Positions 49,743 through 57,905 of a stretch of 64,000 nucleotides of DNA are shown piece after piece. The notes beneath the pieces are model-generated. The model ran no database searches, was not told where the DNA came from, and worked only from the letters and a program-made list of their open reading frames with translations. The DNA is taken from NCBI RefSeq assembly GCF_007752135.1, contig NZ_CP036298.1, positions 3,100,001-3,164,000 on the forward strand, in the 5' to 3' direction. Numbering within the stretch: the stretch's first letter is position 1; each line of letters begins with the position of its first letter. Made by a program: the position numbers and the translations under genes. The stretch is from Aureliella helgolandensis (GTDB lineage Bacteria; Planctomycetota; Planctomycetia; Pirellulales; Pirellulaceae).

Positions 49743-50576
49743 TTAAGCTCCTCGCATGGCATCGCTGACCACGTCATGGTCAAAGTAATTAGTGCTCATG
49801 CCTGCATCGACCACGATTGACTGCGACGCAATCCCGCTGGAACGTGGGCTGAGCAGGAAAGTAGCGGTCGAGGCAACTTCTTCGGTATGAAGCGCGCGTT
49901 TGCGAGGGATAACCCGCTCAGCGTAAAGGTAGGCATCGACATACCCCGGGATGCCAGCCGAGGCGCTTGTTTTCAAAAGCCCAGCCGCGACGGCATTGAA
50001 TCGCACTTCGCTAAAACGGCTGAACGACTTGGTTAGAAAGGCGAGTGAGGAATCTAGGGCAGCTTTGACAGGCGCCATGAAGCCGTAACTCTCACTGGCC
50101 ATGCGCGTCGTAGAAATGCTGATCGTTACCACAGAGCCCGACGGATCGAGCTGGTCTTGGAGTGCGCCAGCTAGGGCGATTAGGGAGAAGCAGCTGATAT
50201 CGATGGCCTGCAGAAACTGTCGGCGGGTCGTCTCGTGAAATGGATGCATGCCATCGCTGTAGTCGGCAAAGGCGATGGAGTGGACCAAGCCCCAAAAGCC
50301 ATCAAAATCACTCTTTAAGTTCGCAGCTAGTGCGTCGATCTGCGACTGATGCTCGACATCACAGACATAGATCGCTCGCGCTTTTCCGGCCAACGATGGG
50401 TTGGCAACGCGATCAAGTAACTTCGCCACCTGTGCCTTGCGCTCTTCAGAGCGTACTACGTAAACCACTTCGGCGCCGACCGCCTCCAATTGTTGGGCCA
50501 CCTGGTAGGCGACACTCTTCTTGTTAGCTACACCAAACACTAGGATGCGTCGGCCGCTTAACTGCAGGAAATCCAT
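49743..50576 (-). CDS. fabI: enoyl-ACP reductase (FabI)
   Basis: 277 residues from ATG 50576; upstream codons in frame add a proline-rich stretch unlike the family and are excluded. The NAD(P)-binding N-terminus [20 protein letters not shown] is typical of FabI (GVAN..S/A). SIAFAD, the active-site Y-x6-K in YGFMAPVK and the C-terminal [14 protein letters not shown] region agree. It reduces the enoyl-ACP double bond in the last step of fatty acid elongation, using NADH. It shares strand with the fabZ-like and CrtI-like genes upstream, but a 385-base gap containing a repeat lies between, so it may have its own promoter. Confidence 0.92.
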
Positions 50577-50961
50577 GTTCGTTGTTTCTTCGTAAAGGCT
50601 TGGCCAGTGGGGAGGAGCGAGAAACGCAATTCTAACTCGCACAAGTGGCGGAGGGAGGGGCAAGTGGCTAGTTCAGGATGCGTCCGCCACTGTGGCATAT
50701 CCTTGCCAACTCCTCGCAGCTGGTTGGAATCGTAGATCGCAGCGTGAGCAGGGGCAGGTGGTAGCAGCTAACGGGCAATGCATTGCTCTACCTCAGCTCT
50801 CAAATCTGGAATTGATTTTAAATCATCAAGCCGATGGCTAGTGCGGATGGTTGCTGCTACACGGCAGATGGAAGCACGATCGCCGCGTTAAAACCAAAAA
50901 AACGCTTTGAATCGCCCGCCTCCCTGGCTGGGGGCGAAAAGAGGGGGGCAGCTTAGCGGAT
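50577..50961. repeat. gap between fabI and the fabZ-like gene holding a diverged repeat copy
   Basis: No gene is supported in this 385-base gap. About 50731-50870 follows the same order of motifs as the 370-bp repeats near 41041: GCG-GAGCA-GGG, GCTA-GGG-AAT, CTACCTCAGC, TTAAATCA, and a second GG-TGCTGCTAC-CGGC block. Identity is clearly lower than between the two tandem copies. The promoter of fabI must also lie here. Confidence 0.65.
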
Positions 50962-51405
50962 TCAATGGGACTTGGGAGTTGCCAGCGTGCAGGCAAAATC
51001 TAGGCGAGCGGCCAGCTTTCCGTTGACAGTAATCTTTCCCGTTAAAAAGTAGGCGGTTGAAACGACCTCGGTCAAAGTAGCCTGAATGTCGATTGTGTCG
51101 CCCGGACGAACCATCTGCTTAAATTTAACACTGTCCATGCGGGTGGCGACGGGAACGCTGTCGCTGTCCGCAGCAAACTTAGCCAATAGGATGGCTCCAC
51201 TCTGGAGTGCGCATTCGCAGAGGATAACCCCCGGCACCAGCGGGTAGTTGGGGAAGTGCCCTTGCACGAAAAACTCTTCACTCGAGAACGTCTTGCGGCA
51301 ATGAATTGTCTCGGGAGTTTGCGCCACGATTTCATCCACCAACAACATGGGTCTGCGATGGGGAATAGCTGCTTCAATCGTCGCGAGTTTCTCGGGTTGA
51401 TTCAT
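50962..51405 (-). CDS. FabZ-like 3-hydroxyacyl-ACP dehydratase
   Basis: 147 residues from ATG 51405; the frame is open upstream but this start gives the standard FabZ N-terminus IPHRRPMLLVDEI. The hotdog active site is present: H in VQGHFPNYPLVPGV and E six residues after the Pro-Gly-Val in ILCECALQ. It would dehydrate 3-hydroxyacyl-ACP. It follows the CrtI-like gene by 52 bases on the same strand, so the two are probably cotranscribed. Two more dehydratase-like genes lie on the other strand at 56270 and 57363. Which of the three serves the main cycle cannot be read from sequence. Confidence 0.88.
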   Translation of the reverse strand: MNQPEKLATIEAAIPHRRPMLLVDEIVAQTPETIHCRKTFSSEEFFVQGHFPNYPLVPGVILCECALQSGAILLAKFAADSDSVPVATRMDSVKFKQMVRPGDTIDIQATLTEVVSTAYFLTGKITVNGKLAARLDFACTLATPKSH

Positions 51406-51457
51406 GATTTTCTCAGAGAGGAGATTGGTAAAGACGCCTGTGGGCGAGAGCAACGCA

Positions 51458-52888
51458 CTACATAGCCTGGGACTTCATGAGGAACTGATCAACGTCGTTG
51501 GCTACGATGACGCCGTAGTTGATTGCACCTAGCCAGCCCGACATGATGATGCCCACGCTGCCGGCATGGTAGAGTCCGGGGACTTGTTCCGGCAGAGCGC
51601 GACTGACGGCGAGTCCTTCAAACTTAGTGCCAAAACTAGCGCCAGACAAGTGCTTGGTGTAGTGTTGGAAGGTGCGTGGCGTGGCTGCTTCGACATGATC
51701 AATTTTGTCCCGCACGTTGGGCACATATTTCTCCAACGCATTCAGCGTGGTCTCGATCAAGTCCTGCTTTTGAGCTTCATACTCGGACGCATCCAAGTGT
51801 TCCCAGTCGCTAAAATTCGCGTTCGTGCTGCTTACGATGGCGTGCCCGCGCTTGCGGGCATCGGGGCGAGTCCGCGGGTAGTAAAAACTGAACGTGCGAC
51901 TCGTGATGTTGGGGCTTAGCAGGGCTTCGGTTCGGAACAGTGGCGCCGTGGAACTGAATAGCAAATCCCCGGTACTTTCGTCGATTTCGACACCCTCTTT
52001 CATCGCCATGTAGACTTGGGTACTGCTGTTGTTCAAGCGGACTTGCCGCGCCTGGTCGACGAATTGGGGATCAAATTTCTCTTCACCGACCAGCTGGAAG
52101 ACTGTCGCGTTTAGGTTCGAATTGCTGATGACACTTCCGCAGCGAATGGTGCGTCCATTGACGACGACCGATTCGATGCCTTGGCGTCCTACTTCAATCT
52201 TGCTGACATCGCAATTGATTCGGCAGTCGACCCCATTCTTCTTCAGCTCGGCGTGCATCTTGCCGATCAAGTCATCGGTCCCACCCTCGTAAATGTACAC
52301 TCCCTTAGCCATGAAGTTGGAAAAGACGATTCCGTAGGTAATGGCCGGGTCCTCGAGGGTCGATCCATTGGCGTAGGTGATGGGTTCCATCAATAATCGA
52401 ACGACATCCTCGCGCCCCGGAAAGTACTTTTCAAACAGTTGGCCGGTCGTCATCGATTGGTCATCGTAGAAATTCATGTTTCGCGCAGCATCGAAGAAAT
52501 CGCGCACACTCTCTGCTGGAACGCCGAAGTCCGAAGTGAGCAACCGCGTAAAGTCTTCTCGATTGAAGGTTGTGGTGAGCGAGAACATGGGGTTGTCAAA
52601 ACGGATGTTCTTAAGCTGAACGATGTTGTCAGCAATTTCTTGGTTCCAATACCGCCTGCAACTCTTCAACATGCCGGCCGGGAAGCCATGCAGCGAGATG
52701 TCAAAAATATGGCTTTTCGGACGTCGAAACCACGTGGCCAAGCCACCGAATTTGTAGTGCTGCTCCAACAGAAGAACGCGATGTCCAGCGCGACCGAGAA
52801 TGTTGGCGGTCGTCATGCCAGCCAATCCACTGCCGATCACGATCACGTCGTAGTAGTCTTGGCAGCCTTGCAGAAAGTCTTTGGCCAT
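51458..52888 (-). CDS. CrtI-like FAD-dependent desaturase/oxidoreductase
   Basis: 476 residues. [21 protein letters not shown] (about 15-35) is the FAD-binding Rossmann motif and [17 protein letters not shown] its ribose-binding strand and loop. The C-terminus [20 protein letters not shown] is the second FAD-binding motif. The family (phytoene desaturase / carotenoid isomerase / retinol saturase) introduces or removes double bonds in long unsaturated chains. No carotenoid gene (crtB, crtE) is nearby; its neighbours are fatty-acid-type genes, which suggests action on an acyl or polyene chain. The substrate is therefore inference. It is the first gene of a unit with the fabZ-like gene. Confidence 0.85.
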
Positions 52889-53196
52889 CGTTTAGAGCTC
52901 GAAAACTGGTAAAGGAGTGATTGCTGCTACAGTACGATTCGGGGTGTGGTGGTAGCGTTGGCATTGCCTGCGCCAACAAATCCAGCAGCCGTCAAGCCTC
53001 AGGGGCCCCTCCGGTTTTCCGCTATTACCCCGATTCGCTGAACAGGTGACGTAGATCGCCAGCCCGTCGTGCGGCGGCTTACCTGCTGGACAATGCACCG
53101 CGCCGTCGCTCGTGGATCGCCGCAGTTCTTCCAGCCAACCGCACCTGGACGGCCAAGATACGGCAGTTAAGGACGCCTGCCAACCTCTAACCCGAC
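52889..53196. other. intergenic gap with a REP-like hairpin
   Basis: No gene is supported in these 308 bases. AGCCCGTCGTGCGGCGG at 53061-53077 is, on the minus strand, nearly the same as the CCGCCGCGTGACGGGCT edge of the 370-bp repeat (two differences), so it is probably a solitary relative. Confidence 0.5.
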
Positions 53197-54729
53197 CTAC
53201 TCCGAACGTGTTTTTTTGGCGCGTCCCTGGGTCCACAGCAGCAGTCCCTCTAGGCGTTGTTTGCCACGGTGGAAATAGGCCTCACTGAGGCCTCGCAACT
53301 GATTCGCATAGCTTTCAGCGCGATCCTCACGCCACTGGAGGTTGCCTGGTTGGATCAGCCCCTCCTGGACGCATTTTTCTGCAATCGCCTCAGCCAGCAA
53401 TTGATGGCCTTCAAGCGACGGGTGAATGTGATCGACTAGCCATTGGTCACCCACAATTCCATGTTCGCTCGCGTCCGAGAACAAGCGGTCTGCGTCAACT
53501 AGTGGGAGGTCAGCATTTTGGGCTACCTCGCGGATAACGGCCGAGATGGCTGTCGGTGCTCGCAGCGGACAGACATCTGCATCTCGCGCAGCTTGGAGAG
53601 TGCGTTTGGCGGGGGCGTAATCCCCACTGGCGTATTGTCTGCGGCCTAGGAGGAACAGCGCGCCGGCATGGTGGGGATCGATTTCCAAGGCCGAGGCAAG
53701 GGCTTGGCCGGCTGACGCTTGATTTTCGGCCTCTCCCGTGTTTTGCGTGGCCTGCTCCCAGTACTCCGAAAATTGTGCACGCTGCTGGGGCGACTGATGG
53801 GGAGCGAATGCAAATTTGAAAGGGGGGCAATCCAGTAGGTTGGTCACGGGGGCGACCAGCACGAGCGGTACTTGGGCGCGCTGGCAACCCGCTACCATCT
53901 GCTCTAGATTCCAGCGGAAGTGGAGTGGGACCGTATCATGCCAGGTGTCGCCACGTTGGTATTCTTCCAAGCCACCTTGGTAGTCGAGCAGCGCGTCGAC
54001 CTCGGTCTGCATGCGAGTGGGCTGGCGAACGACGATTTCCTCTCGCTCCGCCGGGCCAGTGATCCATGACCGAAAGAGCTGGACAAGCCGAAGCTGCGAC
54101 AACCGATACCGCGTTAAATGTAGTAGCTGGTAATCCTCAAGCCCCTCGTAACTGCGCCGCTCCAGGTACTCGTTTTGTCCCGTATAAATCACGATGAGAT
54201 CGGGGGAGTACTCTAGGACTTCTTGGAGGATTGCCAGGACTCGATAGCTGGCGTACGAAAGCCCTCCGCAATTGATCACTTCGACTCTGCGGTCCGGCAT
54301 TGCGGCTTGTAGGTTCAGCTCAAGCCATTGGGGGAAGGCTGTTTCGGTACTGTAGGGTTCTCCCTGTGTCGTGGAGCCACCGAGGGCGAACACCCGGAAC
54401 CCGCCTTGCCCTTTAACTCTGGCAAAGGAAGCGGGGCGAAACAAGTTCATCCGTTGAGCACCAATGCTCAAGATATCCGTCTCGGGATTCAGTTCGAACA
54501 AGGGCTTCAGGCTGTGAAGATCCACAAATGGGTCGGTGGCCGGTGGGTGGCGTGGAAGGTCTATCCAACGCAACACGCCCTCGCAGGCCGCCAACGGAAG
54601 CAGCCCAACCAGAATCGCACCGATCCGAAATAGCCAGAGTCGATGCGCGGGAATTCTAGCGGACTTGGGGCGATGCCTCTTTTCTTGTCCCAGGTCATCC
54701 GAATGCTTGTTGGCCAGAGGGTTGAGCAT
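53197..54729 (-). CDS. SGNH-hydrolase-like membrane-anchored protein with TPR-like insert
   Basis: 510 residues from ATG 54729; an upstream TTG (54762) is possible. A basic N-terminus precedes one hydrophobic helix (about 31-50). The SGNH/GDSL blocks are in order: FALGGSTTQG (Ser near 119), GGLSYASYRVL, YTGQNEYLE, and late DHIHPSLEGH, giving a Ser-Asp-His set. Between blocks III and V lies a helical TPR-like repeat (ALASALEIDPHHAGALFLLG, then QYASGDYAPAKRTLQAARDA). Enzymes of this type remove or add acyl groups on sugars or lipids in the envelope. It lies 45 bases downstream of the Gln-rich gene on the same strand, and the pair probably forms one operon. Confidence 0.82.
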   Translation of the reverse strand: MLNPLANKHSDDLGQEKRHRPKSARIPAHRLWLFRIGAILVGLLPLAACEGVLRWIDLPRHPPATDPFVDLHSLKPLFELNPETDILSIGAQRMNLFRPASFARVKGQGGFRVFALGGSTTQGEPYSTETAFPQWLELNLQAAMPDRRVEVINCGGLSYASYRVLAILQEVLEYSPDLIVIYTGQNEYLERRSYEGLEDYQLLHLTRYRLSQLRLVQLFRSWITGPAEREEIVVRQPTRMQTEVDALLDYQGGLEEYQRGDTWHDTVPLHFRWNLEQMVAGCQRAQVPLVLVAPVTNLLDCPPFKFAFAPHQSPQQRAQFSEYWEQATQNTGEAENQASAGQALASALEIDPHHAGALFLLGRRQYASGDYAPAKRTLQAARDADVCPLRAPTAISAVIREVAQNADLPLVDADRLFSDASEHGIVGDQWLVDHIHPSLEGHQLLAEAIAEKCVQEGLIQPGNLQWREDRAESYANQLRGLSEAYFHRGKQRLEGLLLWTQGRAKKTRSE

Positions 54730-54774
54730 GAGGCACGACGAGGGGCCGAAGGTGTGAAGCAAGCGTTTGATCGA

Positions 54775-55881
54775 CTAGCGATTTTCTTTTGCCAGCTGGC
54801 GGAAGTAGCCTTCGATGACATCTCGATAGTGGCTGGGCAATTCTTCCGTCAATCGCTGTAGGGCCTGCTGCCGTTGGGCGGGCGGTAGATTTCCCCAACC
54901 AGATCGATTGCCATTGTCCTTTTGATCGACATCACCGGGCCCAGAGCCGCCGGCTATTTGGCTGTCCTGCATCCCTTGGGATTGGGATTGTTGCGCAGAT
55001 CCATTCTGCTGGCTCTGACTTTGTTGCTGCTGCATTTGCTCTTCAATTTTCTCAATCATCTTGTCGAGCTTGCTGACAATCTCCTCCTCCTGGTCGCGCA
55101 CGCGCGTCCCGGCCCTGCCGAGATCCAGCCGTCGTTCCACATCGCGCATCATGCGGGAGACCTCGTCCAGAGAATCGGATTCCAGCGGTTGGATATCGGA
55201 CAGCATGAGTTTGGCAAGCAGCGCGTAGCGCGTTGGCAATTCCTCCTCGCGTTCGAGCAGTTGTTCGAGATGAGCTAGGCAGGAATCCTTTTTCAACAAA
55301 TGGTGTTCACTAACAGCTCGATAGAAGATCAGGCTGGCTGGATCACAGACTTGTCCCACTTCCAGACCGGCCAGCGTTTCTAAAGCTTCGTCGTACATCC
55401 TTCGCTGGGCAAATGCCCGTCCGATGGCTAGGCGGAGGGTGTCTTGCATCCAGCCAGGCACATCGCTCGTCAACCAGGGGAGTTCTCCCGGTTCGAGCAC
55501 CGGGCTGCTAACGTCGGATAGGGAGCCATATACCTTTGCGATGCGAGGCTCGATCAGTGCCGCAGACTCGATCAATCGATTCAGGAACGAGTCTCCCGTC
55601 GTTTGTTCGGCCGTGCTTTGCCAGAAGGATTGAACCTCGGCTCGCCCAGCTTCATCCAGCTCACGTTGATCCATGTAGCTGAGGAGATGTTGTTCGAAAA
55701 TTGCCACCTCAGGCCAGTCCCACGAAGCCGCCTTGCGTAGGTCTTGGTAGGCTTGTGTCTCTGTCGAACCACCTGGAATCGCCTGGGCAATCGAGCAGCA
55801 GGTTGGCTGTCCGTTGGCTAGAATGATAAAACCAACACCCCACAGAAGGAGGGTTCGAGTCGGACACGTTGCATCGCTCAT
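54775..55881 (-). CDS. exported helical protein with Gln/Ser-rich linker
   Basis: 368 residues with a hydrophobic N-terminal segment (about 9-23), then a mostly helical body with TPR-like character (RLAIGRAFAQRRMYDEALET, SLIFYRAVSEHHLLKKDSCL). A coiled coil (about 250-282) runs into a low-complexity segment of Gln and Ser (about 283-310), and a conserved-looking C-terminus WGNLPPAQRQQALQRLTEEL. Similar tails appear in planctomycete proteins of unknown function. I cannot assign an activity; a scaffold role beside the SGNH protein is a guess. An intergenic gap of 388 bases separates it from the divergent dehydratase-like gene. Confidence 0.7.
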   Translation of the reverse strand: MSDATCPTRTLLLWGVGFIILANGQPTCCSIAQAIPGGSTETQAYQDLRKAASWDWPEVAIFEQHLLSYMDQRELDEAGRAEVQSFWQSTAEQTTGDSFLNRLIESAALIEPRIAKVYGSLSDVSSPVLEPGELPWLTSDVPGWMQDTLRLAIGRAFAQRRMYDEALETLAGLEVGQVCDPASLIFYRAVSEHHLLKKDSCLAHLEQLLEREEELPTRYALLAKLMLSDIQPLESDSLDEVSRMMRDVERRLDLGRAGTRVRDQEEEIVSKLDKMIEKIEEQMQQQQSQSQQNGSAQQSQSQGMQDSQIAGGSGPGDVDQKDNGNRSGWGNLPPAQRQQALQRLTEELPSHYRDVIEGYFRQLAKENR

Positions 55882-56269
55882 GCCTTTTTCCTTTTCAAGC
55901 CCAGGTTATCCACTTCGATCGTCGCAATCCAAGCGGTGAATATCGCGGTGATGTGCTCGTTGAGGACGTTACTCAAGGGGCGTTCATGGGCGGCACCGAT
56001 CCGCGGACTTTTTCATGGGGTTCCTGATCCATCCAGTTTCCGCCAATCTACGGAGCTTTTCAGCGAGTGGATCCGACAATTGTACATGAAAAATTGCATT
56101 CAGGCCAAGAACAACCCGATCTACTGGAGGATTGGAGGTGGACATTTGCGGATTGTCGCCTGTAAGGTTTGTCGAAATCCTGTAATAAATTATGATCGGA
56201 GCCCGAACGACTGTTGGTACCCACATTCCCAAGTGTGTTTTAACTTCCTACCTTACCACCTGATTTGCT
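55882..56269. other. divergent intergenic region before the acyl-carrier cluster
   Basis: It should carry promoters for the Gln-rich gene (minus) and the dehydratase-like gene (plus). The 100 bases before 56270 are AT-rich but hold no clear -35/-10 pair. Short open frames here are not supported. Confidence 0.45.
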
Positions 56270-56737
56270 ATGCGATTTTGCCAAATTGACCAGATTACCT
56301 TACTTGAGCCCGGAAAACGCATCCAAGCGACCAGGTACCTCTCGGGTAAAGAAGATTATTTGCGCGACCACTTCCCGAGGTTTGCAGTGATGCCGGGCGT
56401 GATGATGCTCGAATCACTCTTTCAGGCCTCTGCTTTGCTGGTTCGTGCGACCGACGAATACCGTCACGGGGTCGTTCTGATGCGGGCCGCGAAAAATGTG
56501 AAGTTTGCTGATTTTGTCCAGCCGGGGCAAACACTAACCATTACGTCGGAAATTTTCAAACAAAATGGCGATAGCTATATCCTGAAAGCGTTGGGGACGA
56601 AGGGCGACTCGGTGGCCGTAAATGCCAGATTAGTGGTGGAGTGCATTCCCGACTCTGACACGTCACCCGTGGATCAATATTCAAGTCGGTATATGAAGCA
56701 ATTGACAGAACAATTGCAGCAAGCGGCTATGGCATGA
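56270..56737 (+). CDS. FabA/FabZ-like hotdog dehydratase
   Basis: 155 residues. YLSGKEDYLRDHFPRFAVMPGVMMLESLFQ carries the FabZ-type pattern: His in RDHFP, Pro-Gly-Val, and Glu in MLESLFQ. VLMRAAKNVKFADFVQPGQTL is the second conserved strand pair. The opening region is shorter than in FabZ (no HRPPFLLVD-type segment; ITLLEPGKRIQATRYL instead), so it belongs to a divergent branch. It would act on an ACP-bound 3-hydroxyacyl chain; whether it is active as a dehydratase or works as a partner subunit is unknown. An ACP gene follows 148 bases downstream on the same strand. Confidence 0.82.
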   Translation: MRFCQIDQITLLEPGKRIQATRYLSGKEDYLRDHFPRFAVMPGVMMLESLFQASALLVRATDEYRHGVVLMRAAKNVKFADFVQPGQTLTITSEIFKQNGDSYILKALGTKGDSVAVNARLVVECIPDSDTSPVDQYSSRYMKQLTEQLQQAAMA

Positions 56738-56885
56738 AAACTAAGGTAGCTATAATCTTGTGCTTCTCTTGGGCACTTCCTATGGTTATAGCCTGGTGCC
56801 GTTGACGACAATGAAATAATTCCATCGCTGATATCCGTGGGCACATGGCCTCGGCAGCATTTAAACTTAAGCAGGGATAGTTACT

Positions 56886-57266
56886 ATGGCGAGTTCGGAA
56901 GAGATCTTCGCAAAGGTTCAAGAAGCGCTAGTCGATGCATTGGGAGTCGAAGAGGACGAAGTCACGCCAGAGGCAACGATGGTCGGCGATCTGGGGGCGG
57001 AGTCGATTGACTTCTTGGATATTGTTTTCAAGCTGGAAAAGGCTTTCGGAATCAATATTCCACGCGAAGAACTGTTTCCAGACGACATCCTCACAAACGC
57101 CAAATATGTCCAGGATGGAAAAGTGACCGAAGAGGGTATTACAGCCCTGAAGGAACGACTCTCCTGGGCAAACCTCAGCAAGTTTGAGCAAAATCCACGG
57201 GTTCAAGATTTTGGCAACCTGCTCAGTGTTAACGATCTTTGCCGCTATGTAGCTAGCAAGATCTAG
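56886..57266 (+). CDS. acyl carrier protein with C-terminal extension
   Basis: 126 residues. The phosphopantetheine site is S40 in DLGAESIDFLDI, where the common DSL is ESI. Helices I-III of the ACP fold occupy about 5-75, with EKAFGINIPREELFP giving the recognition helix. Standard ACPs are about 78 residues; the extra 45 (LKERLSWANLSKFEQNPRVQ and ending DLCRYVASKI) form a C-terminal extension of unknown use, possibly part of partner recognition. A perfect TATAAT (56751-56756) lies 130 bases upstream without a good -35. A strong terminator follows. It is a dedicated carrier, distinct from the housekeeping ACP expected elsewhere. Confidence 0.9.
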   Translation: MASSEEIFAKVQEALVDALGVEEDEVTPEATMVGDLGAESIDFLDIVFKLEKAFGINIPREELFPDDILTNAKYVQDGKVTEEGITALKERLSWANLSKFEQNPRVQDFGNLLSVNDLCRYVASKI

Positions 57267-57280
57267 TATTGCGTTTTGCG

Positions 57281-57317
57281 AAAGCGGTGTGCTCCAGTGT
57301 GGGGCCACCGCTTTTTT
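57281..57317 (+). terminator. intrinsic terminator after the ACP gene
   Basis: AAAGCGGTG (57281-57289) pairs with CACCGCTTT (57306-57314), followed by T to 57317. It sits 15 bases after the ACP stop and before the next dehydratase-like gene, so the latter needs readthrough or its own promoter. Confidence 0.88.
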
Positions 57318-57362
57318 AGCGTCAATAATTCTGCCCGCCTTTCCATGTTTAGATGATTTGCC

Positions 57363-57905
57363 ATGCGCTGGTTTTGGATCGATCGATTTGAAAAGTTTGT
57401 CTCGGGCGAAGAGGCGGTAACCCTCAAGAACGTGACGCTAGCCGAGGAACCGCTCGATGACTACTTGCCCGGCTTTCCTCACTACCCGCATTCGTTGATT
57501 ATTGAGGGGATGGCGCAGACCGGCGGATTGCTGCTCTCCCAAATGGAAGACTTTCAGCAACGCGTGGTCTTGGCCAAAGTCAGCAAGGCGGAGTTTCATC
57601 TGCCTGCCCAGCCAGGGGATCAATTGCGACTCACCGCGCGCTTGGCCAGCACTCATTCCGATGGTGCCATCGTCGAAGGCACCGTAGACATTGGTGATGT
57701 ACGGCAAGCTGATTTGGAGATGACATTCGCGATTCTCGACGAGTCTTTTGGTGATGCACCCTTTTTCGTTCCAGCGGAGTTGTGTCGAATCCTGCGGGCA
57801 ATGAAGCTGTTTGATGTTGGTGTGAACCCGGATGGTTCCCCAATTCAGATTCCGCAGCATATGCTGGACGAAGAGTTGGAGTTGCTAACTCGACCGCGAG
57901 TTTAG
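57363..57905 (+). CDS. second FabA/FabZ-like hotdog dehydratase
   Basis: 180 residues. YLPGFPHYPHSLIIEGMAQTGG has the hotdog helix pattern with Glu in IIEGMAQ, and His in FPHYPHS in the dehydratase region, although the GHF of true FabZ is GFPHYP here. VVLAKVSKAEFHLPAQPGDQ matches the second conserved strand pair. The last 45 residues (LCRILRAMKLFDVGVNPDGS onward) are additional to FabZ. Its ACP-type partner is probably the preceding gene product. The replaced GHF histidine raises the chance that it is a ketosynthase-chain-length-type partner or a thioesterase-like hotdog instead of a dehydratase. Confidence 0.8.
   Translation: MRWFWIDRFEKFVSGEEAVTLKNVTLAEEPLDDYLPGFPHYPHSLIIEGMAQTGGLLLSQMEDFQQRVVLAKVSKAEFHLPAQPGDQLRLTARLASTHSDGAIVEGTVDIGDVRQADLEMTFAILDESFGDAPFFVPAELCRILRAMKLFDVGVNPDGSPIQIPQHMLDEELELLTRPRV

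Follow-up and report, generated by a model that had tools for sequence, protein, structure and literature searches.

Three minus-strand genes of Aureliella helgolandensis, which encode a CrtI-like flavoprotein, a FabZ-type dehydratase, and a FabI-type reductase, are part of a six-gene module of its relatives that comprises a ketosynthase (KS), an acyl carrier protein (ACP), a second flavoprotein, CrtI2, and the trio itself (KS–ACP–CrtI2–CrtI–FabZ–FabI). The trio occupies positions 49743-52888 of the 64,000-nucleotide stretch analysed here (the window; G000:C1:3100001-3164000 of a single-contig genome of 8.44 Mb). A first-pass annotation had joined these three genes with an ACP and two further hotdog-fold dehydratases in one locus. 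That find is real, but half of its genes drop out of the system and seven from elsewhere in the genome join it. The resulting set is probably a dedicated type II fatty-acid synthase (FAS) that, with two CrtI-type flavoproteins, makes unsaturated and probably polyunsaturated acyl-ACP for the OleABCD proteins, which would make the system a variant of the Ole hydrocarbon route with a predicted product. Bacteria are known to form long-chain olefins that have as many as nine double bonds, and the acyl source demonstrated for them in the literature consulted is the Pfa megasynthase. For the ole genes of Planctomycetes and Verrucomicrobia we found no demonstrated acyl source in the open-access literature searched. 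If our reading is correct, a compact set of discrete genes supplies that source, a widespread CrtI-like family gains a function, and an older hypothesis on Desulfotalea and Kuenenia becomes testable with ten genes.

The module was recognized from the neighbourhoods of CrtI, taken as 20-kb stretches (a few shorter) at 40 loci of the order Pirellulales. Genes were counted by tblastn with identity cut-offs chosen for this analysis, and loci cut by a contig end were kept in the counts. All six core genes are present in 23 of the 40 Pirellulales loci, in 17 of 20 loci from other classes, and in 35 of 80 named loci, with several contigs cut off early, and the best match of each core gene in the complete loci lies on the CrtI strand. 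The named loci represent the best 80 of 570 relatives in a scan of named genomes, which also underlies the 42-locus and 38-locus figures given below; they come from Planctomycetota, Verrucomicrobiota (mostly Opitutae), one metagenome-assembled genome labelled Nitrospirae, and a few records named just 'bacterium'. Counted gene by gene, same-strand matches in the 40 Pirellulales loci number 26 for KS, 28 for the second ACP, 28 for CrtI2, 31 for FabZ, and 28 for FabI, and the 20 other-class loci have KS in 18, ACP in 18, CrtI2 in 19, FabZ in 18, and FabI in 18. Six loci from a sister order within the class mostly have a split module, with KS at two and CrtI2 at three. The recurring neighbourhood bears out the proposal that CrtI, FabZ, and FabI form a conserved acyl/polyene-lipid set: the surroundings of the minus-strand trio are kept in many relatives, and a ketosynthase, for which a look outside the window had been suggested, turned up there together with an ACP as a member of the same set. 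CrtI itself has an orthologue in 105 of the 146 genomes of the order (mostly 64-81% identical, with two at 49-50% and some fragments), and in a phylum-wide sample 51 of 195 genomes, the window's own included, have a CrtI match of at least 54% identity.

The module FabZ varies in a few loci (L and G numbers are our handles for loci and genomes). FabZ appears as two tandem matches in L144-L148, and in L144 (11437-12597) both lie in a single frame of 386 residues that resembles a fused dehydratase dimer. The FabZ frame of L149 (11433-12395) has an N-terminal PF13366 domain (16-131), which is either a fusion or a start-codon artefact.

Gene order connects the module to ole genes. At least one ole gene lies near CrtI in 21 of the 40 Pirellulales loci, 18 of the 20 other-class loci, and 56 of the 80 named loci, which fits an earlier hint that very long polyunsaturated hydrocarbons are involved. 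In L149 the genes run OleA-OleB-OleC-OleD-KS-ACP-CrtI2-CrtI-FabZ-FabI on one strand within 13 kb, and the longest open reading frames (ORFs) of OleA, OleB, OleC, and OleD overlap by 4-28 bp. The OleA of this locus scores 396 bits, above the cut-off of 285, on a 3-oxoacyl-ACP synthase III model; OleC is matched first by a fatty-acid CoA ligase model and second by an olefin beta-lactone synthetase model (484 bits against a cut-off of 900), and OleD is matched best by a 2-alkyl-3-oxoalkanoate reductase model (338 against 580). The Pirellulales loci contain OleA 14 times (always on the opposite strand), OleC 14 times, and OleD 14 times; the corresponding figures for the other-class loci are 15 for OleA, 15 for OleB, 14 for OleC, and 12 for OleD. 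When the named loci were split by record title, with match length treated more loosely than in the main locus count, the 42 Verrucomicrobiota loci had OleA in 27 and OleB in 27, and the remaining 38 had OleA in 19, OleB in 19, OleC in 25, OleD in 22, and KS in 32. Full oleABCD linkage to the module holds for Planctomycetota, and the linkage in Verrucomicrobiota is limited to OleA-OleB.

Other genes also stand among or near the ole genes. RimK-like ATP-grasp and zinc-ribbon-like proteins (L053 1196-2209 and 4125-5147) are found among them in part of the family. A protein of 251-252 residues that looks, by eye, like a peptidase of the class I glutamine amidotransferase type is encoded near OleA in three genomes, the window's included (L053 13983-14741, L056 5599-6357, L130 3270-4025).

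The second line of evidence is the co-occurrence of CrtI and OleA. Among the 146 genomes of the order, 103 have both, two have CrtI only (G023 and G051), one has OleA only (G050), and 40 have neither (Fisher p 3e-32, with genomes counted as independent). All three exceptions are fragmented assemblies with a completeness of 88-93%. Joint absence is found within the otherwise positive families f2, f10, and f17 as well as in families f8, f9, and f19. Eight CrtI-less genomes with an OleA-like match of 35-44% were scored as OleA-negative; scoring them as positive changes the four counts to 103/2/9/32. Some presences rest on partial genes, as in G031, where the match is a fragment of 73 residues.

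In the window's genome the set of ten, made up of the six module genes and OleA, OleB, OleC, and OleD, is complete but lies at scattered positions (Table 1). Its five KS loci other than the dedicated one are 24-35% identical to the clustered KS. Relatives of all four OleABCD proteins were recognized by sequence match to the proteins of clustered loci. OleA has 12 PDB matches at E 1e-20, every one titled 3-oxoacyl-(ACP) synthase III (3s21, 3row, 4kti, 5vxd, and others), which we take to be Xanthomonas campestris OleA. For OleC a fatty-acid CoA ligase family model comes first, followed by olefin beta-lactone synthetase models at 569.7 and 481.1 bits (cut-offs 900 and 850), and no PDB match was found at E 1e-50. 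OleD matches 2-alkyl-3-oxoalkanoate reductase models best, at 368.8 and 321.1 bits against cut-offs of 580 in both cases. These OleC and OleD models are named for Xanthomonas and Shewanella types and their cut-offs are missed, so neither protein is classed as the corresponding equivalog.

The established route to such olefins is not apparent in this genome. The C31:9 hydrocarbon is built from a polyunsaturated 16:4 acyl chain made by a Pfa synthase (PMC6463001, PMC4882568), which PMC3098273 also gives as the shown acyl source. Pfa together with OleA yields a polyunsaturated ketone (PMC6463001). No PfaA match was found in the window's genome at E 1e-60, and none of its six KS loci has a frame longer than 519 residues. 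Across the order, 75 of the 146 genomes have some match to the PfaA model at this threshold and four exceed its cut-off, of which only G013 has a CrtI-like gene. Seven further genomes reach 740-825 bits, under the cut-off, and five of these have CrtI (G001, G046, G066, G075, and G134). The Pfa plus OleABCD route of Shewanella and Geobacter resembles the system described here in its OleABCD-type proteins and in having a dedicated fatty-acid system that feeds OleA, as we propose here; it differs in using a multidomain Pfa synthase instead of discrete KS, ACP, FabZ, and FabI proteins with two CrtI-type flavoproteins, an arrangement whose product is predicted.

The two flavoproteins are well separated from each other. 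Identity between the window's CrtI and the aligned CrtI2 sequences is 21-26%, and in a tree of 27 rows CrtI and CrtI2 each form a clade (100/100 for both). A third group (99/94) unites the flavoproteins of FabZ-KS-KS-CrtI clusters with the carotenoid-type CrtI of the window's genome. Long branches, seen in this group, and an atypical residue composition of some rows leave the branching order at depth uncertain; the two 100/100 clades are less affected. The only NCBIfam model that matches CrtI2 at E 1e-20 is a carotenoid isomerase (92 bits, far under the cut-off).

On this basis a working mechanism can be proposed. The dedicated KS and ACP would extend the acyl chain, FabZ would dehydrate it, and the FabI-type reductase would saturate it in some rounds only. 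We infer that the two CrtI-type flavoproteins place or shift double bonds, giving an unsaturated and probably polyunsaturated acyl-ACP. OleA would couple two of these chains head to head, and its product would then be converted by OleD, OleC, and OleB to a long-chain olefin, for example the C31:9 hydrocarbon. We also put forward, as a tentative and rather doubtful refinement, that CrtI and CrtI2 could be redox-neutral isomerases acting on 2-enoyl-ACP (one from trans-2 to cis-2, the other onward to cis-3) in place of the two Pfa dehydratase/isomerase domains, and that the all-cis methylene-interrupted chains formed would lead through OleABCD to C31:9 as the Pfa-independent, discrete type II main route in Planctomycetota and Opitutae. 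As known from Pfa work, methylene-interrupted chains need two kinds of double-bond placement. This need, the usual side-by-side position of the two flavoproteins, and their weak similarity to carotenoid isomerases suggested the refinement.

Several observations weigh against this working mechanism. The ten genes are not clustered in the window's genome, the ole-named equivalog cut-offs are missed by OleC and OleD, and OleA and OleB matched no ole-named model, the best models for OleB being haloalkane dehalogenases below their cut-off. tblastn found OleB in none of the 40 Pirellulales stretches of about 20 kb. None of the six sister-order loci has all six core genes together or any ole gene within the fetched stretch, CrtI stands alone within it in some Opitutae (L197, L215, and L179), and the 42 Verrucomicrobiota loci have no OleC, no OleD, and KS in only 14. 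The counts of CrtI and OleA take no account of kinship. Among the 105 CrtI genomes, a PfaA above the cut-off is present in one and a PfaA-like match below it in five, and Pfa-like synthases have been suggested as an olefin source in Geobacter and the planctomycete Gemmata (PMC3098273). A long-chain olefin as the product is a prediction from genes. The missing ole neighbours in the sister order, and of OleC and OleD in Verrucomicrobiota, would suit a module that serves membrane lipids or another product, with OleA and its partners co-inherited or fed by the housekeeping FAS, from which the Ole pathways of Xanthomonas and Stenotrophomonas draw their chains (PMC6463001). We consider this explanation unlikely, given the near-complete co-occurrence of CrtI and OleA and the clusters that they share in two phyla.

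Two further explanations concern the flavoprotein itself. It is very improbable that it desaturates carotenoids or squalene in the ordinary way and has FAS genes next to it by chance. The AlphaFold model of the protein (predicted local distance difference test score, pLDDT, 86.4) has as its nearest solved fold the gamma-carotenoid desaturase 4rep (TM 0.75), followed by many amine and nicotine oxidases, a match that confirms the CrtI-type fold and not the reaction. The flavin adenine dinucleotide (FAD) fold is what it shares with the carotenoid CrtI/CRTISO family; the difference lies in a conserved module without carotenoid genes, whose FAS neighbours are kept across phyla, and in NCBIfam scores far below the cut-offs (crtI_fam 77 against 238 bits, CrtD 95 against 550, carotenoid isomerase 90 against 587), the last two being the best models and no curated cut-off being reached. 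A carotenoid function was rejected on these scores, which favour a specialised one. Another protein of the genome, encoded at 2.834 Mb, exceeds the crtI_fam cut-off (410 bits against 238), and the window's CrtI is about 25% identical to it over part of its length. Two adjacent squalene/phytoene-synthase matches lie at 8.088 Mb. No other carotenoid-type match was seen among the scanned window proteins, although no gene-by-gene carotenoid search of the stretch was made. We also give little credence to a ladderane-like or ladderane-precursor pathway. FabZ, KS, and a CrtI-like protein are likewise combined in clusters like kuste3604-3608 (gene content as listed in PMC4790861), such as the FabZ-KS-KS-CrtI-radical SAM/B12 cluster of L106 (7862-13868), and some of these loci have an ACP match. 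The first-pass comparison with ladderane genes did not hold up as orthology, however: the flavoproteins of such clusters are 23-25% identical to the window's and lie outside the CrtI and CrtI2 clades, in a separate group (99/94, 100/99) represented by planctomycete stand-ins picked by gene content (L106) and not by Kuenenia. Ladderane orthology was rejected by this tree. OleA and OleD matches in those stretches are weak (25-26%). The radical SAM/B12 enzyme is absent from the conserved module genes, the module neighbours having been partly scanned, and no radical SAM protein was found among the scanned window proteins, the whole genome not having been searched. Two Kuenenia relatives put in place of crtI made no lycopene (PMC4790861).

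Part of the present proposal has precedent. C31:8 and C31:9 occur in Desulfotalea psychrophila without a polyketide synthase and have been reported also from members of Planctomycetes, and CrtI-like proteins were proposed earlier to make such hydrocarbon chains (PMC2649909). The FASII/CrtI-like clusters of Kuenenia stuttgartiensis and D. psychrophila (Rattray 2009, PMC2649909) are similar to the module in that CrtI-like proteins occur there in the company of FAS genes; polyunsaturated chains are what they were proposed to make. In the Kuenenia-type clusters the flavoproteins belong to a different clade and a radical SAM protein is present; D. psychrophila, a producer of C31:8 and C31:9, has two neighbouring CrtI-like/FAS locus numbers, DP2405 and DP2406, and is likened here by description (PMC2649909). 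The presence of ole genes in Planctomycetes and Verrucomicrobia is known (PMC7158056, PMC10176705). In the open-access literature searched, we found no statement linking the ole genes of Planctomycetes to CrtI-like or FAS modules. Both phyla were reportedly tested for olefins by Sukovich in 2010 (Applied and Environmental Microbiology, AEM). As far as the open-access literature shows, four things are new: the module of six genes, the connection to ole by gene order in two phyla, the co-occurrence with OleA, and the complete but dispersed form in this genome.

The remaining three genes of the original candidate locus, HD2–ACP–HD3 (56270-57905, plus strand), are a cassette separate from the module. 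The ACP had been noted for its C-terminal extension, and its PP-binding domain does end at residue 64 of 126. Tail included, this ACP is found in 139 of the 146 genomes, among them 39 of the 41 without CrtI, which does not bear out its assignment, with the two other hotdogs, to the CrtI pathway. Within the order, draft contigs permitting, G000 and G129 alone have the ACP less than 10 kb from a CrtI-like gene, as does G294 of another order (L121); the two trios do not form one conserved neighbourhood. A single pathway of all six window genes would agree with the 8 kb that hold both units here and the at most 10 kb between them in G129 and G294. With the ACP so common in CrtI-less genomes and the cassette elsewhere in other relatives, we rejected the six genes as one locus and regard one pathway as highly improbable. 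In 19 of the 20 loci fetched for the cassette, a KS of its own, 31-35% identical to the module KS, is adjacent; the window and its genus-mate L230 have none there. We take the cassette as a probable separate fatty-acid system of general use. Across the aligned rows HD2 keeps its His and Glu. At the catalytic position HD3 has Tyr in the window, L138, L230, L231, L232, and L236 and His in the remaining aligned rows; the Glu is kept in the window, and HD3 may be a non-catalytic partner of HD2. Among the cassette loci L231-L249, L241 and L248 have a further short-chain dehydrogenase/reductase (SDR) within the cassette, 25-33% identical to FabI.

Table 1. Genes of the window (positions within the stretch) and further genes of the proposed system (positions in the genome, in kb)
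Feature	Position	Strand	Basis
FabI-type SDR (enoyl-ACP reductase of module)	49743-50576	minus	Pfam/NCBIfam; kept beside FabZ/CrtI in relatives
FabZ-type 3-hydroxyacyl-ACP dehydratase of module	50962-51405	minus	Pfam/NCBIfam; active-site motif His + Glu kept
CrtI-like FAD flavoprotein, 476 aa, module core	51458-52888	minus	Amino_oxidase/NAD_binding_8
Two intervening genes: GDSL-type hydrolase (TPR match) and a 368-aa protein that matches no Pfam family	53197-55881	minus
HD2, FabZ-type hotdog of separate cassette	56270-56737	plus	Pfam/NCBIfam, alignment
ACP, 126 aa, long C-terminal tail, separate cassette	56886-57266	plus	Pfam PP-binding at 10-64
HD3, FabZ-type hotdog of separate cassette	57363-57905	plus	catalytic His position is Tyr
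Dedicated KS	723.6 kb		72% identical to clustered KS of relatives
Module ACP and CrtI2	4809-4811 kb		ACP 73%
OleA	2929.6 kb		55% to clustered relatives' protein
OleB	7234 kb		46% to clustered relatives' protein
OleC	8080 kb		51% to clustered relatives' protein
OleD	364 kb		51% to clustered relatives' protein

Window proteins were identified by Pfam and NCBIfam profile matches, and all six gene products claimed at 49743-57905 are present as ORFs with such matches. FabI and FabZ coordinates are given from ATG starts; their longest ORFs begin farther upstream, at TTG. The CrtI-like gene and FabZ had been described as neighbours on one strand, and they are indeed 4 bp apart (longest ORF of FabZ). 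The FabI-type SDR reaches 174 bits on the best FabI model, short of the equivalog cut-off of 391, and has what we take to be the motif Y-x6-K. FabZ reaches 106 bits against a cut-off of 113. Since no minus-strand protein of the trio attains the cut-off of the best FabI, FabZ, or carotenoid model, these are divergent family members. The genome has four PF07977 (FabA/FabZ-type) matches, the three window hotdogs and one other. OleC (G000:C1:8079662) lies about 7 kb from the adjacent squalene/phytoene-synthase genes (8087956). The two intervening genes of the window, for the GDSL hydrolase and the 368-aa protein, are not part of the module, and no match to either was found in the mapped loci of relatives; the 368-aa gene has a 57% match beside HD2 in one relative, L230.

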